Assembly: GCA_017889705.1 (NCBI GenBank)
Contig: JAGGAB010000003.1
Location: 1 to 64,000, forward strand
DNA from: Bacillota bacterium
Lineage (GTDB): Bacteria > Bacillota > Negativicutes > Sporomusales > Sporomusaceae
DNA length: 64,000 nt
Direction: 5' to 3'
In this document: one piece after another, positions 42,360 to 59,165 of the stretch
Position numbering within the stretch: position 1 is the first letter of the stretch
Layout: each line of letters starts with the position of its first letter
Made by a program: the position numbers and the translations under genes
Notes under the pieces: generated by a model
The model's input: only the letters and a program-made list of their open reading frames with translations
Told to the model about the DNA's origin: nothing
Database searches by the model: none

Positions 42360-43007
42360 CTACAAAACCAAAAAGCGGATTGGGTCAACCGCAGTGCCAT
42401 TTACTCTGATTTCATAATGAAGATGTGGACCGGTACTTCTCCCGGTACTTCCCAGATAAGCAATAACCTGCCCTTTTTTTACTGCTTGACCGGCACTTAC
42501 TATTACGCGGGAATTATGACCATAAATAGTTTCTATACCTTTGCCATGATTAATTTGCACAATATTGCCATAGCCTCCAGACCAACCACTTAGCACAACT
42601 TCGCCATCAGCAGTGGCAAAAATAGGTGTTCCCATACTGTTGGCAATATCAATTCCCGGATGTAATTCCTGCCCGCCGCCCCAAGGTGAATTCCGCCAGC
42701 CAAAACGTGAGCTGACCTCGCCGCTAGTCGGCCAAATAGACGGAGTAGCCGCTAAATTAGCCGCATTCTTCGTGATCTTGTCAACATTTTGAGTTGTTCC
42801 AGCCTCACTAGACTGATCAGAGATCATTTCAGTCACAACGATGTTATTAGCATTGTTGGCACTGTGCGCCTGATAATAATTCGAAAAAACTCCCAGCAAA
42901 ACTATGGAAAATAAACAGAGTGCTACAGCAAGCCATTTGACTGAAATACCTGTGGTCTGTCCAGCAGTCACTTTCTGTTCATTATTAAATTTGCTTAACA
43001 TATTCAT
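42360..43007 (-). CDS. M23 (LytM-type) peptidoglycan endopeptidase
   Basis: The 215-residue protein has an N-terminal membrane anchor (about residues 24-42), a short linker, and a C-terminal LytM domain. Metal ligands are visible in HPGIDIA (H and D) and HLHYEI (HxH), with GYGNIVQINHG and GSTGRSTGPHLHYE typical of the fold. It cuts peptide cross-bridges or acts as an activator of amidases. It is monocistronic, with a good terminator. Confidence 0.92.
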   Translation of the reverse strand: MNMLSKFNNEQKVTAGQTTGISVKWLAVALCLFSIVLLGVFSNYYQAHSANNANNIVVTEMISDQSSEAGTTQNVDKITKNAANLAATPSIWPTSGEVSSRFGWRNSPWGGGQELHPGIDIANSMGTPIFATADGEVVLSGWSGGYGNIVQINHGKGIETIYGHNSRVIVSAGQAVKKGQVIAYLGSTGRSTGPHLHYEIRVNGTAVDPIRFLVL

Positions 43008-43268
43008 TCCTTCTCTGCTCCTTTTAACCGAAACCGCTTCTTGACAGAAACCTGCCTGTTAATTACGTCACCGTCAACCTATATTATAACGGAAAATTAT
43101 ATATTTGGGTTATTATACAATAAATTTTTTTTGCCAAAAAGCAAATGGCTATTCCCGACTATTAACTAAGTGCGCTCAATGAAAACTACTGAAAAATGTG
43201 TCTCTTAAATAAAAAACGCCCAAAACTATAAAGTTCCAGACGCTCCATAATACTGACGAAGTCATAAA

Positions 43269-44102
43269 TTATTTGGTTCTAAGCATATTATATGCTTTAG
43301 CTGAGATATTGGCGATAAAGTTACTGGCATAAGGTACAGCCCGCCGAGTAGTTGTGTACGCACTAATAAGTATTACATCCCGTCCGTCATCAATAATACC
43401 CACATCACACTGCACGCCCGGAAGCTCACCTACCTTATGCAAGACTTTAACCTTTTGCATATATCGCGGTATTTCTTCATTAAAGATAGTCGTAGCTAAT
43501 TCTTCTTTCAATATTGCGGAAAATTCCTTACCCAAATAGGTTTCATTATAGACTGCTTCAATAAGCACAGCCATCTCATACGGAGTTGTTACACTGTGAT
43601 AACCGTATTTAGCAAAAGCATCCCGGCTGTGAATTCTTGTATGAACTAGTTTAAGATCTGTTAAAACTCGTGTTAGTGCATCCGGTTTTTTACGCTCAAT
43701 ATCATCCAATAAGCGATAGAAGGCCGGGTTATCACTTATGACCATCATCTGCCTAATATTGTTATCATATCGCTTTTTCTCATCTGTGGCAGCATCTGTA
43801 TACAAATATTTGTAGATAGCAAGCGCAACGACAATTTTGTGAGTGGATGCAGTAGGAAAAATTGAGTCTTGATTAAAGCCGAAAGTTGTACCTGTTTTTA
43901 AATTCTTTGTATACATACCTGTTTTTCCGTCAAAATTCTCTAAACTGCGTTGAAGCTGTCCTCCAAGATCAGGAGGAGGTTGGGGAACGTTCGTGTCAGG
44001 CAGCACGGCTTCTGGTTTTAGTTGCGGAGTGTTTACCGTGCCACAAGCAATCACACATAACGAAGTCAGGATTAGTAGTAGTATAATTATAGATCGCAAC
44101 AT
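43269..44102 (-). CDS. Class A beta-lactamase-like lipoprotein
   Basis: The N terminus is a lipoprotein signal (LLLILTSLCVIAC). The serine-hydrolase domain has STHK (S-x-x-K catalytic pair), SDN (ISDNPA) and KVG in place of the KTG triad (VLHKVGELPG). The length of 277 residues suits class A enzymes. The KVG variant and the missing clear E166 omega-loop motif make real beta-lactam hydrolysis uncertain; it could be a penicillin-binding or wall-related hydrolase. It is a single gene. Confidence 0.82.
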   Translation of the reverse strand: MLRSIIILLLILTSLCVIACGTVNTPQLKPEAVLPDTNVPQPPPDLGGQLQRSLENFDGKTGMYTKNLKTGTTFGFNQDSIFPTASTHKIVVALAIYKYLYTDAATDEKKRYDNNIRQMMVISDNPAFYRLLDDIERKKPDALTRVLTDLKLVHTRIHSRDAFAKYGYHSVTTPYEMAVLIEAVYNETYLGKEFSAILKEELATTIFNEEIPRYMQKVKVLHKVGELPGVQCDVGIIDDGRDVILISAYTTTRRAVPYASNFIANISAKAYNMLRTK

Positions 44103-45858: not shown

Positions 45859-46188
45859 ATGTTGGAAAAAACTTTAGATTTCTTTTATGGAGAAAAAAAC
45901 ACTACAATTTCTGATGCTATTGCCACTGAATTGGATGAACATCAGCAGTTCCTGGAAAAAAACGGCTTTGCCGTCAAGCGTTCCAGCCATTTGATAAATT
46001 ATGAGGCCGCACAATGCCTCACTGCCGAAAAGGGCAATGTTGTCCTGACTACCAACCGTTTCCTGCGCGGCGGTAAGGATTTATCAATTCAATTGAAGCA
46101 GCACGGTTATGAAACTGCTGTTCCTTTATTTCCCGGTAAGCTTGCTGAAACAGTGGCTGTTGTAAATGCCGCTCAGCGTATACGCTAA
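45859..46188 (+). CDS. Hypothetical protein (109 aa)
   Basis: The protein starts MLEKTLDFFYGEKNTTISDA after AAGGAG. The middle LTAEKGNVVLTTNRFLRGG resembles a short beta-alpha unit as in Mut7-C/DUF5615 PIN-like proteins, which is only a weak likeness. It is the only rightward gene between the LysR gene and the permease, convergent with the latter, and is divergent from lysR. It is a possible LysR target. The function is unknown. Confidence 0.65.
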   Translation: MLEKTLDFFYGEKNTTISDAIATELDEHQQFLEKNGFAVKRSSHLINYEAAQCLTAEKGNVVLTTNRFLRGGKDLSIQLKQHGYETAVPLFPGKLAETVAVVNAAQRIR

Positions 46189-46346: not shown

Positions 46347-47726
46347 TTACATCAAGATAATAGCCACAATGGTTGTTGCAACAAACCCCAAAACAACCGG
46401 TACAAAATTTTTTCTTGCTAGTTCTATTGGGTTAACGCCGGTTATTGCCGCTACCGGAATTAGTCCCCAAGGGATGATTGTTCCACCCCCTGTCCATACT
46501 CCGGCTATTTGCCCAAGTGCAGCCAATGTCGCCTTATCAATCGGCATGGCAGTGCCAAAAGTAGCTGCTACACTCCCAACTAGCGGCAGTGGTGAAAAAC
46601 CAGACCCGTCTAAACCGACAATGATACCTGTGGCTAAACTGACGATCGCTACAAAAAATTTATTCAAAGGAATTACCTGTGACAGATAAATTCCAAAGTC
46701 CTCAAGAAAACCGGTTGCTGTTTTTACATCCAGTATTGATTTGGCTAAATCCCCTTTACCCAGAAAAAAGAAGCCGCCAATGATGATTACCGGCGCAAAA
46801 ATCTTGATGCCAAACATAAACCCATCTCGAATATATTCGGTGATTTTTTCTAATCCTTCCCAACCATCCTTCAGTAGTGTCCCGACCGCCAAAATGATAA
46901 CTGCCGTGGCCCCTAAGAGAGCGGTCGCATCACCGCCTTTTAACTTCAAAACCCACATGGCGGCTACATCAGCAGCAAACGCCAGCGGCGTTACCCAGGC
47001 AAGAATATAGGAAACGGTAGTGATCTCACGCTGTACTTCTTTAGCACGAAATGCATTTTGTTCATTTTTCAATGCTTCTGGATTGTTTCTCATATCTTTT
47101 TTTATCAAAATATATGCAGTTACCGTAGATACCAAACCCATTGTAATCGCCAGCGGAATGCTAGCAGAGATGATTGGACCGGGATCGGCAAAGCCTGCGG
47201 CTTTAGCAGTAATGGTAGGTGCTCCTTGGATTACATAGTCTGTTGATAGTCCAATTCCATGTCCAAATAAGTTCATGGCAATCGCTGCCCCCATAACCGG
47301 CAGTCCAGCTCGTACAGCCACCGGAACCATAATTGCGCCAATTAGGGCAACCGCCGGCGATGGCCAAAAGAACCAGGAAGCAAGCAGCATAGAAAAGCCC
47401 AAAACCCAAAATGCAACATCCGCATTAATCATTAATTTCGCCGCAGGGCTCATTACAAGATAATCCGCTCCGGTATCGCTTAATAGTTTTGATAAAGCAA
47501 CAATCAAAGAAATGACCACGATAATTCCCCAAAACTCATTACCGGCTACAATAAGGGCATTAAAGATAGTAGATACCGCCCCCACTACTGATTGCTTAAC
47601 AACCCAGCCAACCGTTAATAAACCTAAAATGCAAGGAATAAGAGGATCTTTGCGCAGTGCCATAACAACAATTACAACAAATACCCAAAATAGGAACAAC
47701 CAATGTGCTGCCGTCAGTGTCACCAA
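46347..47726 (-). CDS. GntP-like ion-transporter-superfamily permease
   Basis: The 459-residue integral membrane protein has about 12 hydrophobic helices, a central cytoplasmic stretch (KKDMRNNPEALKNEQNAFRAKEV), and repeated small-residue loops (WFFWPSPAVALIGA and GIIVGLDGSGFSPLPLVGS) as in GntP/CitMHS-type carboxylate or gluconate transporters. The start is TTG 47726 (GTG 47723 alternative) after GGAGG. It is the last gene of the leftward B12-mutase operon, so it most likely imports the amino or organic acid that the operon degrades. The substrate is not readable from sequence. Confidence 0.75.
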   Translation of the reverse strand: MVTLTAAHWLFLFWVFVVIVVMALRKDPLIPCILGLLTVGWVVKQSVVGAVSTIFNALIVAGNEFWGIIVVISLIVALSKLLSDTGADYLVMSPAAKLMINADVAFWVLGFSMLLASWFFWPSPAVALIGAIMVPVAVRAGLPVMGAAIAMNLFGHGIGLSTDYVIQGAPTITAKAAGFADPGPIISASIPLAITMGLVSTVTAYILIKKDMRNNPEALKNEQNAFRAKEVQREITTVSYILAWVTPLAFAADVAAMWVLKLKGGDATALLGATAVIILAVGTLLKDGWEGLEKITEYIRDGFMFGIKIFAPVIIIGGFFFLGKGDLAKSILDVKTATGFLEDFGIYLSQVIPLNKFFVAIVSLATGIIVGLDGSGFSPLPLVGSVAATFGTAMPIDKATLAALGQIAGVWTGGGTIIPWGLIPVAAITGVNPIELARKNFVPVVLGFVATTIVAIILM

Positions 47727-47776
47727 TGTAGGTAAGCCTCCTCTTGGTAGTGTTATTTCACAATATAATTCTTCGA

Positions 47777-47938
47777 TTACGAAGGTATAATATTATTTAT
47801 TTGAGCATTTTGCTCTTGTTTATCTTTTGTTGTGTTATTGGGCGATTTCTTGTCTGTCGTCTGTCTTGTCAGTGAGTCTTTATGTTTACAACTTGTCTTA
47901 TCAACACAAATTTCATGGATTCCTCTTATAGTTTCCAT
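47777..47938 (-). CDS. Mini-protein (53 aa) in the B12-mutase operon
   Basis: The ATG at 47938 lies 6 nt after GGAGGTG. The protein starts METIRGIHEICVDKTSCKHK, with two cysteines, and continues as a highly polar, Lys/Asn/Gln-rich tail ending QNAQINNIIPS. It lies between the mutase and permease genes and is likely translated. The last 10 residues resemble those of the 40-aa protein at 55512-55634. No family known; perhaps disordered. Confidence 0.6.
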   Translation of the reverse strand: METIRGIHEICVDKTSCKHKDSLTRQTTDKKSPNNTTKDKQEQNAQINNIIPS

Positions 47939-47995
47939 GGTTTCACCTCCGTTAGTAGTTTTGCCTATTAGCGAGATAATTACTCGAAACAAGTA

Positions 47996-49816
47996 TTATA
48001 TTGTTGTAACAGTATCTTTGCCGATACGACCAGGATAAGCTCCTTCTTCCCGGCTTCCCAGCACACCATTATGAATAGCACTGACAAAATCACCGGTTTT
48101 TATAACTTGCTCAAGTACTTTTTCAATTCTTTCAGTAATCTGCTCGGCATATTTATCAGCCTGCGGCGTAGGCTTGATGCTTGCTTGGCCAAAAAAACGC
48201 AAACTGTCTTGTACGGCTCTGAGGGTATCAATTTTAGCTGGAACGGATATGGGTCCACCCGAATAAGCCTCGTCGGTAGATGCAATGGAAATGGCGTCTA
48301 CTTCAAGAGACATGGCCAAGCAAGCATGCAGAGCGGTTGTTGTGGCTGATTGCACACGATCTTCGGTATGGGTCAGAAAACCGATTGGTGCGCCTGGCCA
48401 AATAGGTGCATTGATAATTTGACGCAACGCATAGATTTTCGCAGCATTAAAATCAATATAATTGTCTTCCATATATTCATGGATCATTACTTCCGGCGAA
48501 TAAGCAAAAAGAGGCTGCAAAATGGGTCTTGCACCTAAACGTACAGCCAAATCGCTGACGATAAGCATACCGGCAAACGCTTTGTGAGCCGGGACACCTG
48601 CCAATTCTTCGTTTGTTACAACATCAAACGGCATATTGTATTTCTTGGCAAACAGAATAGAATGGTAGCCGTCAATCGTCATTCGCTCCGGGTCAGTTCC
48701 TGCCCCGAGTGAGCCATAACAAATATTGATTTTGGTTAAATCCGCACCTATTTTCCCTGCCAAAACAACTGTTTCCGGTGTATTAAGCCCACGATGAGCG
48801 CGTACTTGCCATAGCGTGGATTTTTCTAATGCTCCGTGAATCCTGTTAAGATTGGCCGGTGTTATTACAGTTCCATCTTCCTGATGAGTCAGAAAACCAT
48901 CGAGAAACCCTTCTGTGCGCGCCCCCCAGGAGGGATCAAAATGCACTACTCCGTCTGCTCCCCAAGCTTCACTGGCAAGAATATGGCCAACATCCATAAA
49001 CGGACAGCCTGTACCATACTGGTTAAATACCAGCGGCTTTTTCCTCGTATGCTGTAATTTCAGTACCGACATACGCCTTTTGGTTTCCTCTAAGTAGTGT
49101 TCAAGACCCCGGACTTCTTCAACAGTAAACCGGCGGGTCTTAGGGTGCAATTCACCGGTAGTGTAGTATTTTTGCGGAACTTCACTGCACATTTCGGGAT
49201 ACTGGTTATACAGCTCGCCGTTACCTTCACGCCTGCGCCAACGGTCAACATCCCACAACTCATCCCGGAGCTTGGCCCGTTTTACGCCAGGTGAAGTCTT
49301 ATCTTTTACCCAGTCAAGAATCATATCGGAAATCTTGGCAAGTTTTTCACCAATGCCGGTATGCCGGTATTGGTAATCATAGCTTGCTGTCATATCAATC
49401 TTTTCTTTTTTGCTTCTAAATGGATCCGGATGATATTCGCGTCCTTCGACGAAACAAATAACTTCCTCAATTGTAGTTCCTGGGCCAAAACCGGCATCAA
49501 ATCCAAGTTCAGCCGCAAGCTCGGGACGAATAGCCATACCGCCAATACCGATTTTAGTGTTATTGCGAAGACCGGCGGCATCACTCACATCTATAAAGCG
49601 CGCTAATATCTCACCGACACCATAACCCAGCGTACGACTCAAGAGCAACACATCTACTTTTTCCTTGCTAAAAATCGTCTCAATAATTTCATCAGACGTA
49701 AGGTCAGGCGGCAATAAAAATATCTCATGGCCTGCTTGGGTCAAACCACGCGCAATCATCTTGAGACCAATATCATGTACCGGATCAAGCGGGGCTAAAA
49801 CCACACTTTTTTTCAT
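47996..49816 (-). CDS. Fused glutamate-mutase-like B12-dependent enzyme
   Basis: The 606-residue protein joins two parts. Residues 1-135 form a cobalamin-binding domain with D11-P-V-H14-D-I-G17 (DxHxxG, His ligating cobalt), a following LLLSRTLG, and IGIGGMA, as in glutamate mutase S. Residues about 260-606 form a barrel matching glutamate mutase E: WQVRAHRGLNTPE (about 339), STDEAYSGGP (513-522) in the place of TPHEAxGxP, and a C-terminal GDFVSAIHNGVL...GAYPGRIGKD stretch. Classical glutamate mutase is two subunits; here they are one chain, S before E. It should rearrange the carbon skeleton of an amino acid via a radical. ATGA overlap with the small gene upstream shows coupling. Changed active-site residues make the substrate uncertain. 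Confidence 0.8.
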   Translation of the reverse strand: MKKSVVLAPLDPVHDIGLKMIARGLTQAGHEIFLLPPDLTSDEIIETIFSKEKVDVLLLSRTLGYGVGEILARFIDVSDAAGLRNNTKIGIGGMAIRPELAAELGFDAGFGPGTTIEEVICFVEGREYHPDPFRSKKEKIDMTASYDYQYRHTGIGEKLAKISDMILDWVKDKTSPGVKRAKLRDELWDVDRWRRREGNGELYNQYPEMCSEVPQKYYTTGELHPKTRRFTVEEVRGLEHYLEETKRRMSVLKLQHTRKKPLVFNQYGTGCPFMDVGHILASEAWGADGVVHFDPSWGARTEGFLDGFLTHQEDGTVITPANLNRIHGALEKSTLWQVRAHRGLNTPETVVLAGKIGADLTKINICYGSLGAGTDPERMTIDGYHSILFAKKYNMPFDVVTNEELAGVPAHKAFAGMLIVSDLAVRLGARPILQPLFAYSPEVMIHEYMEDNYIDFNAAKIYALRQIINAPIWPGAPIGFLTHTEDRVQSATTTALHACLAMSLEVDAISIASTDEAYSGGPISVPAKIDTLRAVQDSLRFFGQASIKPTPQADKYAEQITERIEKVLEQVIKTGDFVSAIHNGVLGSREEGAYPGRIGKDTVTTI

Positions 49817-50061
49817 GGCTGATCCACCTTTGCAGCTTCCCTTAGCAGCCAGGCATATTTATCTGCCGGACGATATGCATAGGCGCGGCCGCGGATTCTT
49901 GTGCCAGGTCCTACATGTTGGGCAAATACAATGTCCACATCGCTGAACCCCCAATTTTTGAGCATGTTTAGCATAATATTCCGGCCTTGCAGCTCATTAT
50001 CGCAGACAATAAAGGTTTCTACATCCAATGCGTCCATTATTTGATGCAGCGGATTAGACAT
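49813..50061 (-). CDS. Small protein (82 aa) coupled to the mutase
   Basis: MSNPLHQIMDALDVETFIVC opens the protein and it ends with AAKVDQP. The start at 50061 has AGGTGA at a good distance; a GTG 12 nt upstream is possible. It overlaps the mutase gene by 4 nt (ATGA) and lies 16 nt after the P-loop gene, so it is tightly co-expressed. No family is recognised. The position suggests a mutase accessory subunit, analogous to small partners of other B12 mutases; this is inference. Confidence 0.7.
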   Translation of the reverse strand: MSNPLHQIMDALDVETFIVCDNELQGRNIMLNMLKNWGFSDVDIVFAQHVGPGTRIRGRAYAYRPADKYAWLLREAAKVDQP

Positions 50062-50077
50062 ACTGCCTTTCACCTCA

Positions 50078-51193
50078 TTATTTAAAGTAGATTGTTTCCG
50101 GCGATTCCCAACGGTAGGTATTTAGGAGAATGATATCCACCAGTCGCTTTGCCCCGTGTCTGGTAACATTAAACACTGGAGCTGCAATTCTACGCTTTAT
50201 GGAAACCTCCAGACTATGAAAATCGATATAGTTGGGAATATAGGTTTTAGATTCAAACCGATACTCGGGGAAGAAAGGGTTTACGGTTACCGCAAGTAAA
50301 GGAACACGTCGTAAGACGCCGGTAAAAACACCGGCTTCATAGAGCTTGTCTAATACCTGGTAAAATGACATGAGATTGTCAGTAGTAAGAAGTTTGACGG
50401 GATCCGCAAAAACCAGGAATAGCCGTTGTTCACTGTTGATAAACTGGTTGTACAAGGTTTGCAAAACTTTTTCGTTGGTGATTCCCGGTATGATTAAATG
50501 TCCTTCACTATCATCAAATCCTTGAAATAAGCGCATTGTTTCCTGTTCACTCAAGAGCGACGGCTGCTTGCTGCTGGCAACCTCCTGCAGGTTAGAATTA
50601 AATAAAGTAACATTAGACAATTTTTTCTCGGTTAGTTTGGATAGTTGCTCAGCATACGGCAAATTAGAAAGCCGCCACAACATTTCAGTTTCCTCCGAAA
50701 GAGTAGGTATATTGGTGGTACGTGCTGCACCAGTAGCCAAAATAATACCGTCAGTTTCAGCCATGGGAGCAATACGACTAAGGGCACCATCAAAAATTGT
50801 TACTCCAGGCCCAATCTTGTGCAATAAATCTCTAAGCAGGCGTACTTCTGCGCTTTTATTAGGTCCGGCGGTAACAATCATTCCGGAAGAAATTACTTGA
50901 GTGATGACTACTTTTCCAAGTGGAGTATGGATATTGGTTTTTTCAAGTACCTTAAGTTTTGCAGTGCTGGTTGCTACACATTTTTCTGCTGTGGCAATAA
51001 TTTCTTTCGCCAATACCTTTAATTTAGGTTTTGGCAAGCCGGTGATATTGTCCAGGTTTTCACCATCATAGCCAATACTTGTTAAAAAAATCGGGATTTC
51101 GCGAGCCCTTAATTCGTCAAGTATAGCTGCAGTTGTTGTTGTTTTTCCAGTATTCTTTGCGGTACCAGCAATGCCAATAACCAGCTCAAGCAA
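50078..51193 (-). CDS. P-loop protein, putative B12-mutase reactivase (KamB-like)
   Basis: The 371-residue cytoplasmic protein has a P-loop at its start (GIAGTAKNTGKTTTT) of the dethiobiotin-synthetase/MinD-like kind, followed by ATGAARTTNIPTLSEET and a second alpha/beta domain. Proteins of this size and motif accompany lysine 5,6-aminomutase (KamB-type reactivase) and I suspect the same job here: removing damaged cobalamin from the mutase using nucleotide. The start is TTG 51193 preceded by AGAGG; the longer reading from 51253 lacks a site. No MutL/GlmL-type ATPase is in the cluster. The assignment is by memory of family features. Confidence 0.65.
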   Translation of the reverse strand: MLELVIGIAGTAKNTGKTTTTAAILDELRAREIPIFLTSIGYDGENLDNITGLPKPKLKVLAKEIIATAEKCVATSTAKLKVLEKTNIHTPLGKVVITQVISSGMIVTAGPNKSAEVRLLRDLLHKIGPGVTIFDGALSRIAPMAETDGIILATGAARTTNIPTLSEETEMLWRLSNLPYAEQLSKLTEKKLSNVTLFNSNLQEVASSKQPSLLSEQETMRLFQGFDDSEGHLIIPGITNEKVLQTLYNQFINSEQRLFLVFADPVKLLTTDNLMSFYQVLDKLYEAGVFTGVLRRVPLLAVTVNPFFPEYRFESKTYIPNYIDFHSLEVSIKRRIAAPVFNVTRHGAKRLVDIILLNTYRWESPETIYFK

Positions 51194-51330
51194 ATATATC
51201 CTCTCCCTGCTCAGGGAAAATATCGTAATAAGAAAAATACAGGCCGCTGCCAATTACCCTCTTGGTATCTGGGCTTATACACGGCCTGTTATACAGGTGT
51301 ATATAATTTACTTGGCAGCAGCGGTTTTTT

Positions 51331-52632
51331 CTAGGCCAATGATTGGGCAAAAATGCCGCTCATATTTGCCTGTTCTACCTTGTTTTTAATCTTTTCTATA
51401 TCAGTAGTATAAAGCTCTTTACTGTTTATATGATCAAATAATACAGAGCCGGAGAAGGTGTATTTTTTAGTTAATCCCTCTTGCGTAGCCATTTGCTCCT
51501 TAACGTAGGCAATACCTTCACCACACGCAAGTGATCTTGGAATTTCTAGGGTTTCTTGTCCTAATGCATATCTGGCGGCATTATGTCCGGCCAGTGTTCC
51601 CGTAATAATTGCCTCAGTATGCCCCACCAATAATCCGGCTTTTTCGCCGCCACAAAAGACATTGTCAAGTGTATCGACCTTTAACGTATTGTCACGTGGC
51701 AGCATGCCAAAGTAACGCATCGAGTTGCCAATACCTCCGGCATACGGATCTTCAAAACGGGCATTTTTGCATCCGGGAATTTGGCGCAGAATATCAAGCG
51801 GGTAATACGCAGTCATCAATTTTGCATGACCTGTGTCTAACAAAACGATGTTTTCGGCAAATTCCTTTAGTGCATATTGTTGGCAAGCCTTTTGCCCAAG
51901 AGATGACATGTTTTTTTGCAAATGGGACGGGACGGGAATTACACAGACACCGGTACGATCTAACTTTTCTCTGATTTCCGGAGACAAGGATTCTTTATGC
52001 AGCTTACAGGAACCGCTCATCGCACCTAACGTACCGTCAGTTTTTTCGCCTATCATTTCCTTCACACCAGCTTTTGCACCAATACTCAGGCGCGGACCAA
52101 AGGTCGGGCAACGATAAATACACATGGCACAACCGTTGCCATACTTTGAGCAGTTGGATTGGGGACCGGCTGTGCCGGAAACATCGACAAAGGCATCGCC
52201 GGCAACTTGTATGGATTCTTCTTCTTCAAATAAATCAGCAATTACCCGTACTATCTTTTTATTTTCCATAGCTATATCTTTGACACGGGATTTAAGATGA
52301 ATTTTTATGCCTGCATCCAAAAGCGCTTGGCGAACAGCCGGTTCAATTGTTGACACATCATATAAATTAGCATGCTTATGTCCCGGAAACTCAATATTCT
52401 TATGGCGAGAGTTAGCGTCGGTAATCTCGAACAAATCACCGCCACCCATGGCAATCATTTCTTCGGTAACTGTGAACCGTCCGTTATTGCGCATAATGCC
52501 GCCTACCAAGCCAGTTCCGAGGAGCATATCTGTCCGTTCAAAGAGTTCGACATCACAACCAATTTTTTTAGCTGCCAATGCAGCCGCAGTACCTGCCCAT
52601 CCGCCACCGACAACAACAACTTTTTTAGCCAT
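51331..52632 (-). CDS. FAD-dependent oxidoreductase with candidate Fe-S site
   Basis: The 433-residue flavoprotein has a dinucleotide-binding motif at the N terminus (VVVGGGWAGTAAALAA) and a C-terminal FAD-binding segment (VFCGGEKAGLLVGHTEAI). Cysteines C161, C168, C171 and C175 form C-x6-C-x2-C-x3-C in NCSKYGNGCAMCIYRCP, suggesting a 4Fe-4S cluster in the middle of the chain. The overall layout recalls FAD-dependent dehydrogenases such as TrmFO/GidA and FixC relatives. Within the operon it would provide a redox step, possibly dehydrogenating an amine or a hydroxy acid. GGAGG precedes the ATG. Confidence 0.78.
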   Translation of the reverse strand: MAKKVVVVGGGWAGTAAALAAKKIGCDVELFERTDMLLGTGLVGGIMRNNGRFTVTEEMIAMGGGDLFEITDANSRHKNIEFPGHKHANLYDVSTIEPAVRQALLDAGIKIHLKSRVKDIAMENKKIVRVIADLFEEEESIQVAGDAFVDVSGTAGPQSNCSKYGNGCAMCIYRCPTFGPRLSIGAKAGVKEMIGEKTDGTLGAMSGSCKLHKESLSPEIREKLDRTGVCVIPVPSHLQKNMSSLGQKACQQYALKEFAENIVLLDTGHAKLMTAYYPLDILRQIPGCKNARFEDPYAGGIGNSMRYFGMLPRDNTLKVDTLDNVFCGGEKAGLLVGHTEAIITGTLAGHNAARYALGQETLEIPRSLACGEGIAYVKEQMATQEGLTKKYTFSGSVLFDHINSKELYTTDIEKIKNKVEQANMSGIFAQSLA

Positions 52633-52717
52633 GATAAACCTCCTTTTTTGTGTAATTGCGAAGGCATTGAGGATTGTCTGATTGTCCCCAATGCCTCCAC
52701 GCTATCATGCAAAGTGG

Positions 52718-54178
52718 TTAAAGAATCCCCGCGTATTTAGCAACAATTTCCATAAGTTTAATCTGCGCCTTAACACCATACCGCATAACATCTTTTAGCA
52801 AATTGCCCTTGCTGTCGGTGGTTGCAAGGTCAGGGGAAATATAAATATTACCGTCATAAGCCACTGTTGGAATTACGCCCATTTGGGCCATTCCTGATTG
52901 CAATATGTTGGTCCCAGAATACATATCTTCAATGGAGAAGATTGGCAGACCCATTTCCCCACTATCCCAAGTGCCTTCATAGTTAACCTCAACAGCGCGT
53001 GAGTTGTACGACTTATTGATAATAATCCCAGACTTAAGTTTGGGATGGATATTAGCAAATTCTTCGACAACCACATCATACAGATCATCAACTGATTTGG
53101 TATATATTTCGGGATTATCGCGCAAGACTTTTAGGGCTTGAATTTGTGTAGCCAGCGCTTCCTTCCCTGGATCAAAGGTCACATAGGCGGCTTTGCCATA
53201 GGAAGACGTAGTGCCCCATCTATCGCCATGCATACCCATTGCCCGGCGAATGGGAACCATAACATCTTCTTTGCCGATAATCAAGCCGCTTGTGGCTGCA
53301 CCACTGGCTTTATCCATGCTGTAGATAATCGCATCAGCCCCGGATTTGCGGATATCGTGACCAATCCCAGGCACACCCCAGGCATTGTCTATGATATAGG
53401 GTACTCCATATTCTTTGGCAAGTTTGGCATACATTTTTTGAAGTACAGGCGTACCGTCTGTGTCTTTTTCACCGTAACCATAGCCTGGAGTCTCATAACC
53501 TAAAGACGTGATGCCGGTAAACATACTGGCATGAATCTGAGCAAATTTCTTCATATCTTCATATACTTGCTTGGGATCAACCTTAGTTAACATGGGCACA
53601 GGGTGGTATTTAATACCATGCACATCATATTTTGCCCCTGCCAGCGGAACTATGACAGTATCTAAATTGTTTTGCCGCTTGCCATAGAAACCAAGCTCTC
53701 CCGGAGTAGTACCACGGTCGGCAATCAAATCTTTGTATCTTCCCGGATAGGGCCTACCATACCCGCCTTGATGGTGGAAATGCTTTTCGTAAGGGGCAAA
53801 GTAACGGGTACGGTAGTTGTCACCACGTCCTAAAGCCGGAGGAGTGAACAGGGAATCAAACGCTACCCATAGACCTGCTTCACAAGTGCTTGTCGGTGCG
53901 GCGTCATATTCGTCACCATAAATATCTTTGACCAACTCACGGATTTCATCAACCATCCCGGCTAATGGAATTACCTTTTTACCAGCTTCTTCGCCAGCAT
54001 GCATGATATCATCTCTTAGAGGTGCCGGACATCCGGAAATCCCGCCAGTCATGCCGAATTTCCCTTTGATTTCAGCAGGAATATTAAGTTCTTCGGCTGC
54101 TTTGCGGGCATCGGCATAAATGTTGGGAATATTAGCCTGAAGATGCTTGTACATTTGGAACTTATACTTGAAAGCCAT
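52718..54178 (-). CDS. Fold-type-I PLP-dependent enzyme
   Basis: The 486-residue enzyme has D264 in YIIDNAWGVPG (binds the PLP ring nitrogen) and K290 in YSMDKASGAATSG (Schiff base). The segment after K290, GLIIGKEDVMVPIRRAMGMHGDR, resembles SelA/DgaE-like and aminotransferase-V-like lyases. PTSTCEAGLW supplies the phosphate or ring contact. An alpha,beta-eliminating lyase or aminotransferase acting on the mutase product or substrate is likely, because a RidA gene lies directly upstream and RidA hydrolyses the enamine/imine that such lyases release. The substrate is unknown. GGAGG precedes the ATG. Confidence 0.8.
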   Translation of the reverse strand: MAFKYKFQMYKHLQANIPNIYADARKAAEELNIPAEIKGKFGMTGGISGCPAPLRDDIMHAGEEAGKKVIPLAGMVDEIRELVKDIYGDEYDAAPTSTCEAGLWVAFDSLFTPPALGRGDNYRTRYFAPYEKHFHHQGGYGRPYPGRYKDLIADRGTTPGELGFYGKRQNNLDTVIVPLAGAKYDVHGIKYHPVPMLTKVDPKQVYEDMKKFAQIHASMFTGITSLGYETPGYGYGEKDTDGTPVLQKMYAKLAKEYGVPYIIDNAWGVPGIGHDIRKSGADAIIYSMDKASGAATSGLIIGKEDVMVPIRRAMGMHGDRWGTTSSYGKAAYVTFDPGKEALATQIQALKVLRDNPEIYTKSVDDLYDVVVEEFANIHPKLKSGIIINKSYNSRAVEVNYEGTWDSGEMGLPIFSIEDMYSGTNILQSGMAQMGVIPTVAYDGNIYISPDLATTDSKGNLLKDVMRYGVKAQIKLMEIVAKYAGIL

Positions 54179-54219
54179 AATGTGATTCCTCCAGTATAGT
54201 AATTTTTTTGCTTCTATTT

Positions 54220-54681
54220 TTAAGCCTTTACTTTGACAATCATCTCTACTTCAACAGCAGCATTAATGGGCAGTTCAGCAACACCAACTGCTGAACGGGA
54301 ATGCTGACCTTGTTTGCCAAAAATCGTGCCGATTAATTCAGATGCTCCATTGATAACTTTAGGCTGATCGACAAATCCTGGAGCGCTATTGACAAAGCCC
54401 ACAACTTTTACAATTTGCTCAATGTTATCCAGATTGCCGATAACGCTTTTTACGGCAGCAAGACAGTTTAAGGCGCACACTTTAGCGGCCTCATAACATT
54501 GTTCAACAGATAAGTCAGTGCCTGCTTTACCGGCATATGCGAGCTTTCCTTCTACAAAGGGAATTTGTCCGGATGTGTACACATAGTCGCCGACCTTGAT
54601 CGCAGGAACATACGCCGCTACCGGTTTAGCCACTTCCGGGATGGTTAGTCCCAACTCTTTTACTTTGGACTCAAAGCTCAA
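54220..54681 (-). CDS. RidA-family enamine/imine deaminase
   Basis: A 153-residue member of the RidA/YjgF superfamily. GDYVYTSGQIPFVEGKL, CALNCLAAVKSVIGNLDNI and the C-terminal SAVGVAELPINAAVEVE are characteristic. The Arg that anchors the substrate carboxylate in active RidA enzymes is present in SRSAVGVAELP. RidA speeds hydrolysis of enamines released by PLP lyases such as threonine dehydratase. Start TTG 54681 overlaps the upstream gene's stop (TTGA), so translation is coupled. Confidence 0.9.
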   Translation of the reverse strand: MSFESKVKELGLTIPEVAKPVAAYVPAIKVGDYVYTSGQIPFVEGKLAYAGKAGTDLSVEQCYEAAKVCALNCLAAVKSVIGNLDNIEQIVKVVGFVNSAPGFVDQPKVINGASELIGTIFGKQGQHSRSAVGVAELPINAAVEVEMIVKVKA

Positions 54682-55118
54682 TCTACTTCCTCCTTTTCGC
54701 CTATCGTAATTGCACTTTCTACTGAAGCATCAAGTTCCCGGCCAGTTTTTCTCTTACCAGCCAGCACTATATTGAGATGGTTTGGCATATGTGTTTCATC
54801 AAAACCGGCAATTTTACCGATGACTTGGCCACTTATGCGTACAGAATCTCCAACAACAATAACTCCACCCTGAATTATTTCGATAAAACCAACATAGGCA
54901 ATGCGATTTACCCTTTGTCCTGGCCCTGTCTCTTCATCAGAAAGTATAATTTCATGTATTTCTGATGCCTTAACCGCTCGGGACGAAGGGAGCATTAGTT
55001 CAAGTCCCCGGTCTTCAAACGTACCATCAAGGACTACAGCCAGTTTTCCGCTTATTTGCCGCTTGGCAAAGTAGGGATTAAATTGACCAAACATATTTCG
55101 GGCGTAGGGATCACTCAT
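54678..55118 (-). CDS. Unrecognised protein (146 aa), first gene of the operon
   Basis: The protein begins MSDPYARNMFGQFNPYFAKR and is beta-rich: a short N-terminal region, then VVLDGTFEDRGLELMLP, VGFIEIIQGGVIVVGDSVRI and IVLAGKRKTGRELD. It resembles small beta-barrel proteins labelled only as domains of unknown function (perhaps DUF6917), which I cannot confirm. It heads the leftward B12-mutase operon and overlaps RidA by 4 nt. Preceded by GGGAGGGG. Confidence 0.7.
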   Translation of the reverse strand: MSDPYARNMFGQFNPYFAKRQISGKLAVVLDGTFEDRGLELMLPSSRAVKASEIHEIILSDEETGPGQRVNRIAYVGFIEIIQGGVIVVGDSVRISGQVIGKIAGFDETHMPNHLNIVLAGKRKTGRELDASVESAITIGEKEEVD

Positions 55119-58099: not shown

Positions 58100-58852
58100 T
58101 TACGTGATTTTGCGCATAACATTGAGTACTGTTTTCATCTCGTCAATCGGTATTTGTCCAGGCGCTGACCTCTCTTGTCCTACAGCAAAGGTAACCGCTG
58201 AACCGAACACACCGCCAAGCAGCCTTGTCGATACGCCGCACGAGCCCATAGATACTGTGATTACCGGAATATCAAGGCTTTTCTTGGCTTCTACAGTAAT
58301 CCCCAATAAAGTCAGTACATCTTCAAGGCCGTTTGGCATAACTGCAACTTTTGCTACATCGGCACCATAATTTTGGGCCTCCACAAGTTTCTTGAACAAA
58401 CATTCTTTGTCTGGTGTCAAAGTAAAATCATGAAAGGATGCAATAATCTTCGTTCCATTCACAGCTGTAATCTCACGCAGCTTCTTTATCTGTTCCGGCG
58501 GATTACTTAACTCATAATCTACGTATTCCATATCTGTATGCTTAGAGACTGCAGCAATAAGCTTGAATGCATCTTCCTTGGAAAAACCCGGTATATGATT
58601 TCCACCTTCACTGCTGGATCGCAGTGTAAAAATGGTAGGAGTGTCTCCTGTTTTGTCGGCAATCTGTCTAGCTAGCGATATGACTTCATTGGTGTCATTT
58701 ATTTCGTCAAAAAAGTCTGCACGCCACTCGATAATATCCGGCTTCTTTTCTAAAATATTGTTCACTTCTGTCAGAATCAGGTTCCGTGTTTTAGCTACTA
58801 CAGGTGTACAAACAAGCGGTTGATCTCCCTCACCAATTAGCTTAGCTGACAA
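58100..58852 (-). CDS. aroD: 3-Dehydroquinate dehydratase, type I
   Basis: The third step of the shikimate pathway: 3-dehydroquinate to 3-dehydroshikimate, via a Schiff base. The 250-residue type I enzyme keeps IIEWRADFF, IASFHDF (catalytic His) and VAKVAVMP (Schiff-base Lys), and GSAVTFAVGQERSAPGQIPI at the C terminus. The start is TTG 58852 six nt after GGAGGAG. It is preceded by a Phe-type T-box leader, so it is expressed when phenylalanyl-tRNA is uncharged. Confidence 0.96.
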   Translation of the reverse strand: MSAKLIGEGDQPLVCTPVVAKTRNLILTEVNNILEKKPDIIEWRADFFDEINDTNEVISLARQIADKTGDTPTIFTLRSSSEGGNHIPGFSKEDAFKLIAAVSKHTDMEYVDYELSNPPEQIKKLREITAVNGTKIIASFHDFTLTPDKECLFKKLVEAQNYGADVAKVAVMPNGLEDVLTLLGITVEAKKSLDIPVITVSMGSCGVSTRLLGGVFGSAVTFAVGQERSAPGQIPIDEMKTVLNVMRKIT

Positions 58853-58900: not shown

Positions 58901-59165
58901 AAAAAATCCCGTCCCTTATAGGGACGAGATTTGACTCCCGCGTTACCACCCAGATTGCATCACACCACTTCAGGTACAAAAAGCACGCTTTCGATACCCT
59001 ATCCTTGTAACGGTGGCAACCGGCACAGCTTACTTTTGCGGAAAATCCACAATTTCCACCTGCAACTCAAAGGGGAATTTCACTACCAGAATCGTCCGGT
59101 TTTCACCAACCACCGGCTCTCTGCACAACTCTTATATAGTTACTTATCCTTATCATCGTCGTTAG
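58901..59165 (-). promoter_or_regulatory. T-box leader (probable Phe specifier)
   Basis: Leftward: stem I with AGTA (complement 59141-59144) and GAA forming the loop-E motif, then codon TTC (complement 59075-59077) as specifier; the AGAGAGCCGGTGG distal loop; the T-box core GGGTGGTAACGCGGG (complement about 58937-58951); and a terminator with arms around a TATA loop followed by TTTTTT (58901-58931). The TTC codon one nucleotide after GAA indicates tRNA-Phe. It controls aroD. Confidence 0.88.

Follow-up and report, generated by a model that had tools for sequence, protein, structure and literature searches.

We analysed a 64,000-nucleotide (nt) stretch of DNA from a Bacillota bacterium of the Sporomusaceae (assembly GCA_017889705.1, contig JAGGAB010000003.1, positions 1–64,000; hereafter the window), which carries a leftward cluster of eight genes centred on an adenosylcobalamin (AdoCbl)-dependent mutase. 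The cluster and its relatives suggest, at roughly even probability, a B12-dependent pathway that breaks down diaminopimelate (DAP) derived from peptidoglycan. All eight open frames listed in the initial annotation, which had described a B12-dependent amino-acid catabolic operon, were present on the minus strand:

54678..55118, minus strand: DUF6917 protein, 146 amino acids (aa); PF21891, 156.5 bits
54220..54681, minus strand: RidA-family imine/enamine deaminase; PF14588, 103.5 bits, and PF01042, 62.6 bits
52718..54178, minus strand: fold-type-I pyridoxal 5'-phosphate (PLP) enzyme, 486 aa, with Lys290; proposed C–C or C–N lyase, from the predicted structure and its Protein Data Bank (PDB) matches
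51331..52632, minus strand: flavin adenine dinucleotide (FAD) flavoprotein, proposed D-amino-acid dehydrogenase; PF01134 and other FAD families above cut-off
50078..51253, minus strand: P-loop reactivase subunit of the KamB type; NCBIfam NF052386 (KamB), 218.1 bits, cut-off 210
49813..50073, minus strand: small partner of the mutase, 82–86 aa; adjoins the mutase in 79 of 80 loci
47996..49816, minus strand: AdoCbl-dependent mutase, 606 aa; PF02310, 49.3 bits, cut-off 32.1
46347..47726, minus strand: permease by appearance, 459 aa, likely for uptake; no family match

The seven genes from DUF6917 to the mutase were packed as first described, with two overlaps of 4 nt and gaps of 41, 85, 77 and 4 nt when the longest frames were taken. 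The same description had placed the permease within tens of nucleotides, and this part did not stand: the permease is set off from the packed unit by 269 nt and is a looser member of the operon. The DxHxxG motif, the P-loop and the PLP lysine all held in alignment-based conservation counts, as did the cysteine cluster of the flavoprotein, and Pfam confirmed RidA membership.

Relatives of the cluster were counted in three samples, with genes called as open frames and long antisense frames in G+C-rich genomes taken as artefacts. The close-relative sample comprised the host and 59 relatives (60 genomes), in which 22 loci were read around full-length mutases. A wider scan of one genome per species returned 118 relatives of the mutase locus, and the best 80 of these 118 were used for locus counts, some of them truncated by contig ends. 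The third sample was a survey of 398 Bacillota genomes, host included. Twelve of the 22 close-relative loci duplicate members of the 80-locus set, being the same DNA, and the same genome may carry two labels (G372 and G391 mark the same contig place); counts are not additive across samples.

A full-length mutase was present in 15 of the 60 genomes (relatives 69 to 81% identical), with an interrupted copy in a sixteenth, and most other matches of the mutase search were B12 domains only. The 22 loci contained the small partner (22), the PLP enzyme (21), DUF6917 (21), the flavoprotein (20), RidA (18) and the P-loop protein (13), in shuffled gene order. Similarly, the 80 loci contained the partner (79), the PLP enzyme (75), the P-loop protein (63), DUF6917 (61), the flavoprotein (52), RidA (42) and a permease homologue (24), together with an FCD-type regulator family in 47. 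Named hosts were Pelosinus, Sporomusa, Lucifera, Heliobacterium, Heliorestis, Tepidanaerobacter, Fervidicola, Thermovorax, Desulfotomaculum, Formimonas, Halobacteroidaceae and Ignavibacterium.

Among the 398 Bacillota genomes the mutase was found in 39; DUF6917 and the PLP enzyme occurred in 40 each, and all 39 mutase genomes belonged to both of these sets (hypergeometric log10 p about −53, kinship not corrected). The single genome with DUF6917 and without the mutase (G755) carries its DUF6917 copy on a contig that ends inside the PLP gene. DUF6917 was missing from 19 of the 80 loci, and a genome-wide search covering 10 of these 19 recovered it elsewhere in the genome every time (10/10). In nine of these ten genomes it belonged to a separate DUF6917–flavoprotein–RidA unit apart from the mutase and PLP enzyme, one of the nine having a second DUF6917 copy clustered with the mutase; in the tenth the order was DUF6917–RidA–PLP enzyme–flavoprotein. 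DUF6917 strictly accompanies the mutase, being present in 39/39 of the mutase genomes in the 398-genome survey, and the operon is real and co-inherited across phyla, far beyond chance. The initial annotation had named genes that are not inherited together as grounds for refuting it, and the genome neighbourhoods of the 80 loci and the 398 genomes show that they are inherited together.

Several loci depart from the common layout. Two full-length mutases occurred in 7 of the 60 genomes (locus pairs L023/L025, L024/L030, L027/L029, L017/L031, L026/L028, L021/L033 and L016/L036), perhaps for two substrates, and in five of the seven one locus had no nearby P-loop gene. In the same-genus genome G007 (L037, 10001–11822) the mutase frame was broken by stops, and the other cluster genes were matched over most of their length. 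Intervening genes were listed as frames of at least 100 aa near the cluster, one per family, with regulator family u0 excluded. They included a biotin-dependent carboxylase subunit between the mutase–P-loop pair and the DUF6917–RidA–PLP–flavoprotein set (L059, 5384–7315), the alpha and beta subunits of a pyruvate/2-oxoacid:ferredoxin oxidoreductase (PF01855, PF02775) between the PLP enzyme and the flavoprotein (L080, 5302–7145). In two further loci a frame of 304–306 aa, CorA-like by eye, is inserted between the small partner and the mutase (L114, 9056–9976; L145, 10806–11720).

The mutase comprises an N-terminal B12 domain (about residues 1–125), a helical stretch like the N-termini of OraS and KamD (about 150–190) and a KamD-like barrel, and only the B12 domain exceeded its Pfam cut-off. 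In an alignment of 67 of the 80 mutases with that of the window (68 rows), D11 and H14 of the cobalt-ligand motif DxHxxG were present in 68/68 and G17 in 66/68. An AlphaFold2 model built on these 68 sequences reached a predicted local distance difference test score (pLDDT) of 89.3 and a predicted template modelling score of 0.86. Its best PDB match in Foldseek was lysine 5,6-aminomutase alpha (1xrs_A, 5.4e-18), followed by ornithine 4,5-aminomutase (3kp0_A, 1.2e-11) and glutamate mutase E (9.1e-11). We also compared profiles with hhalign, each result being a single pairwise comparison and not a database search. The mutase aligned with KamD at an expectation value (E) of 1.1e-4 over 390 columns (probability 56%, 21% identity) and with GlmE at only E 0.11, and the glutamate mutase family PF06368 was not matched in it up to E 0.1. 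The enzyme had been called glutamate-mutase-like; by fold and by profile its catalytic part matches lysine 5,6-aminomutase alpha better. Additionally, the B12 domain matched KamE (E 2.5e-19), and the stretch behind it has a TSPxVxR helix in common with OraS (E 2.5e-5, 31 columns).

The two genes next to the mutase bear on the same comparison. The small partner had no family above cut-off in Pfam or NCBIfam. It weakly resembled the part of OraE that immediately precedes the B12 domain of that protein (E 3.1e-4, probability 40%, 47 columns) and is perhaps the counterpart of the OraE/KamE dimerisation region; the KamE N-terminal domain was tried as a candidate and gave no match (E 0.031). The P-loop protein matched a KamB-like frame beside a KamDE (hhalign E 2e-42). 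Its P-loop residues were at least 90% conserved in 58 sequences, and its start is uncertain; in the longest frame the P-loop lies near residue 27. Judged by these profiles and the model, the mutase looks like a branch of the lysine 5,6-/ornithine 4,5-aminomutase superfamily that has its domains rearranged and a KamB-type reactivase, and in which the parts of KamDE and OraSE appear to be present in another order.

The mutase differs from these aminomutases at the cofactor site. The position of the PLP-binding lysine, 11 residues after the cobalt-ligand histidine, was Leu in 66, Val in one and Met in one of the 68 mutases, and this lysine was present in the four KamE and three OraE proteins compared. 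The mutase has a lysine 5 residues after the histidine, as do GlmS and a methylmalonyl-type B12 protein of the host. According to PMC3958899, the PLP contacts of lysine 5,6-/ornithine 4,5-aminomutase include Arg184, Ser189, Ser238, Tyr263, Arg268 and Asn299. Among these contacts, the weak KamD alignment places Tyr263 at Tyr367, identical in 68/68 mutases, Arg184 at Asp294, Ser238 at Arg342 and Arg268 at Ala372, with Ser189 and Asn299 falling in gaps. Because the PLP lysine is absent and most of the contacts look lost, the mutase probably works without PLP, on an aminomutase scaffold. That it carries out a PLP-free skeleton rearrangement is, in our judgement, evenly balanced.

A different reading of the same data is a PLP-dependent 1,2-aminomutase that holds PLP in another way and shifts the amino group of a diamino acid, whether DAP, lysine, ornithine or some other. 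The closest match by fold and profile is lysine 5,6-aminomutase alpha (by fold also OraE), the reactivase is of the KamB type, the end of the B12 domain is KamE-like, and the ornithine route likewise combines an aminomutase with a dehydrogenase and a PLP enzyme. Against this stand the missing PLP lysine (68/68), the contacts Arg184, Ser189, Ser238, Arg268, Asn299 and Tyr236, which are not conserved in the weak alignment, and the finding of no thiolase or coenzyme A (CoA) family among the eight window proteins (Pfam, NCBIfam). We consider this reading unlikely.

As to the substrate, gene context points to meso-DAP from peptidoglycan, which was not on the substrate list of the initial annotation. 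In Ignavibacteriota and near kin the unit has the order regulator–DAP dehydrogenase–DUF6917–PLP enzyme–partner–mutase–P-loop protein. Eleven loci carry a complete gene for this dehydrogenase immediately upstream of DUF6917, namely five of the seven loci of this type in the 80-locus set (two of these seven labelled Bacteroidetes) and six of six fetched later from the same phylum. In the remaining two of the seven, one contig starts inside the 3' end of the dehydrogenase gene and the other inside DUF6917. The 13 Ignavibacteriota-type loci are distinct, no pairwise stretch of more than 400 bases exceeding 85% identity. Five dehydrogenase copies scored 308–334 bits on TIGR01921 (cut-off 180.6), and that of L112 was closest to the solved diaminopimelate dehydrogenase 3wb9 (6.9e-117). 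In the genomes with DAP dehydrogenase in the unit, a search at E 1e-20 found the flavoprotein missing from 11 of 11, and RidA occurred in 0 of the 13 loci. In a further lineage, UASB270, locus L107 has DapF directly upstream of DUF6917 (228.6 bits, cut-off 114.65), and the flavoprotein is present in that genome.

Muropeptide-salvage genes also surround several of the Ignavibacteriota units: amidase-NamZ near L112 and L117, LD-carboxypeptidase near L115 and L144, and M14 carboxypeptidase near L143 and L146. The DAP decarboxylase LysA was found near L112, L114, L117 and L144, and L112 additionally has an AmpG-family major facilitator superfamily transporter and a NagK-like (N-acetylglucosamine) kinase, both below their cut-offs. 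Among Bacillota, L104 has DapF (238.2 bits) about 5 kb from DUF6917 on the opposite strand, and in L072 and L081 the end of a LysA gene lies about 5 kb upstream, these fragments scoring just under the cut-off. Taken together, gene context, for the most part from outside Bacillota, supports DAP best, and the substrate is somewhat more probably DAP or a close relative than anything else. As a separate observation, DapF and an NhaC-family permease stand side by side in L104 (7–2318, minus strand), the permease being 34% like that of Ignavibacterium L112.

The other proteins of the unit fit around the mutase to different degrees. Family searches place the flavoprotein in the GIDA/FAD-oxidoreductase type, and its Cys161, Cys168, Cys171 and Cys175, at least 90% conserved in 52 sequences, would likely bind a [4Fe-4S] cluster. 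Lys290 of the PLP enzyme was invariant (62/62; 61 of 71 usable sequences plus the window). No Pfam model exceeded its cut-off for this enzyme, and the PDB matches of its predicted structure (pLDDT 90.5) were Cap15, SepCysS, SelA and D-glucosaminate-6-phosphate ammonia-lyase. DUF6917 carries a conserved GxDxTHxPNHxN motif and was not mentioned in any paper found by targeted search. The permease matched no Pfam or NCBIfam family up to E 0.1. RidA had initially been paired with the PLP lyase; this pairing is not favoured, as the Ignavibacteriota loci keep the PLP enzyme but lack both flavoprotein and RidA, and RidA goes, loosely, with the flavoprotein (DUF6917–flavoprotein–RidA apart from mutase and PLP enzyme in 9 of 10 genomes). 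In L176 (6247–7414), the immediate neighbours of DUF6917 are an aspartate-dehydrogenase-like gene and a regulator of the GntR/FCD type (the regulator by eye), and the 15 kb stretch contains no mutase.

On this basis we infer, from known chemistry, a scheme of deamination, skeleton rearrangement and PLP-dependent cleavage. The flavoprotein would oxidise the D-centre of DAP to an imine, which RidA would hydrolyse; in Ignavibacteriota and kin, DAP dehydrogenase would do both deamination steps. The exchange of these two proteins for the dehydrogenase next to DUF6917 suggests that the pathway includes an oxidative deamination at the D-centre, and DUF6917 seems to go with this step. The mutase and the PLP enzyme would form the other half. 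The mutase would perform a PLP-free 1,2 carbon-skeleton rearrangement, moving the glycyl group from C3 to C4 as in glutamate mutase, and deamination could come before or after it; together the two would give a 2-amino-3-methyl-5-oxoadipate skeleton. The PLP enzyme could then catalyse a beta-elimination with pyruvate enolate leaving, yielding pyruvate and aminocrotonate, the latter going on to 2-oxobutyrate. Since no CoA enzyme is present in the window unit, the products should be common metabolites. The full scheme remains doubtful.

DAP serves as a diagnostic amino acid for the walls of many bacteria, and in soils and sediments it marks dead bacterial material. If the full scheme is right, it would let anaerobes live on the walls of dead bacteria. 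Targeted literature searches, judged by titles and abstract starts, returned no account of this system or of B12-dependent DAP breakdown. With low probability, this would be the first such breakdown, in which a straight C7 diamino diacid is turned into a methyl-branched chain and, after loss of one amino group, into pyruvate and 2-oxobutyrate. A mutase family that has an aminomutase scaffold but not the PLP lysine would link skeleton mutases and PLP-dependent aminomutases, and DUF6917, a family of unknown function, gains a defined setting. The system adds a branch to a known enzyme superfamily, in an apparently undescribed pathway.

Several observations weigh against a PLP-free mutase acting on DAP. 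For the mutase, the PLP site was read from a weak alignment (E 1.1e-4, probability 56%, 21% identity), and in the profile comparison with OraE the B12 domain alone aligned (E 5.5e-11) and the barrel did not. The acceptor carbon of DAP lacks the adjacent activating carboxylate that glutamate has and is less activated. The fold of the PLP enzyme does not fix its reaction, and this enzyme occurs in G421 (C4:133110–134552) without mutase and DUF6917. The pairing of RidA and flavoprotein is loose among the 80 loci, RidA being present without the flavoprotein in 6 and the flavoprotein without RidA in 16. For the substrate, the DAP assignment is carried over to Bacillota from Ignavibacteriota and kin and one UASB270 locus, and the 80-locus scan found no DAP-specific gene inside the Bacillota units. 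The mutase was not found in the three other UASB270 genomes examined, and DapF next to DUF6917 was seen there in one locus. DapF and LysA are common housekeeping genes, and neighbours such as that of L104 may be chance.

A further reading is the same system acting on another substrate, a diamino or dicarboxylic amino acid of wall or protein origin (D-lysine, D-glutamate, lanthionine or 2,4-diaminobutyrate), with relatives of DAP dehydrogenase and DapF recruited to it. The Bacillota units without a DAP-specific gene, the aspartate-dehydrogenase-like gene adjoining DUF6917 in L176 and the paired full-length mutases in 7 of 60 genomes, perhaps with a different substrate each, are all in keeping with this. 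However, two DAP-specific families, both well above their cut-offs, lie next to DUF6917 in two lineages, and the units are surrounded by muropeptide-salvage genes, which makes another substrate improbable.

An anabolic or wall-modifying system, supplying peptidoglycan or spores with a branched derivative of DAP, has very little to recommend it. Some Bacillota clusters lie near dacF-like and rluB-like genes (u4 11/80, u2 14/80; named by eye), and spmA/spmB-like neighbours occur in L087, L110 and L174; these are housekeeping genes whose presence may be chance, and they are likewise weak support for DAP. The permease, RidA and dehydrogenase fit breakdown, and the system occurs in Ignavibacteriota, which are not known to sporulate.

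A divergent glutamate mutase system, as initially proposed, is highly improbable: the start of the B12 domain resembles GlmS and glutamate mutase E is among the structure matches (9.1e-11), but the comparison with GlmE gave nothing (E 0.11) and the host genome has its own GlmE (PF06368, 764 bits), preceded by GlmS- and GlmL-like frames (by eye), on which grounds a glutamate-mutase variant was rejected. For the same reason the missing methylaspartase, offered at first as an argument, says little, since this genome has a separate glutamate mutase locus. The broader proposal of a B12-dependent unit with a reactivase, likely catabolic and distinct from the methylaspartate route, was borne out.

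Around the cluster, a 109-aa frame without a Pfam match lies between the permease and a LysR regulator (window 45859–46188, plus strand) and has a homologue (49%) in Pelosinus locus L038. A few kb downstream, an M23 peptidase and a beta-lactamase-family protein (PF01551, PF13354; window 42360–44102, minus strand) are possibly unrelated. A T-box leader (RF00230, 119 bits; window 58917–59165, minus strand) lies upstream of a 250-aa frame (58100–58852) that by eye resembles 3-dehydroquinate dehydratase. A regulatory scan counted 9 promoter-like sites, where the mean of shuffles was 21, and 19 terminator-like sites against 10.3, and was not used.

Among known systems, KamDE with KamB shares the barrel fold, the KamE-like B12 domain and the P-loop partner. 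The window mutase differs in having its B12 domain at the N-terminus, fused ahead of the barrel, in the separate 82-aa protein as the candidate dimer region, and in lacking the PLP lysine, with most PLP contacts unconserved in the weak alignment; no other enzyme of lysine fermentation was named among the eight window proteins by Pfam or NCBIfam. OraSE shares the TSPxVxR helix of OraS, the B12 domain, and the combination of mutase, dehydrogenase and PLP enzyme. It differs in domain order and in a barrel unaligned by profile; DUF6917 is not the thiolase subunit OrtA (no match, E 0.032), and the window PLP enzyme is of fold type I, whereas OrtB is of fold type II. Glutamate mutase (GlmS/GlmE/GlmL) shares AdoCbl and the HxxGxK start of the B12 domain, and works without PLP. 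Its catalytic part is unmatched by profile, the window reactivase is of the KamB type, and no methylaspartase was found among the eight cluster proteins (Pfam, NCBIfam). Finally, the meso-diaminopimelate dehydrogenase Ddh, known for lysine biosynthesis, occupies the place next to DUF6917 in Ignavibacteriota and kin that elsewhere belongs to flavoprotein and RidA, and stands there in a unit with a B12 mutase.

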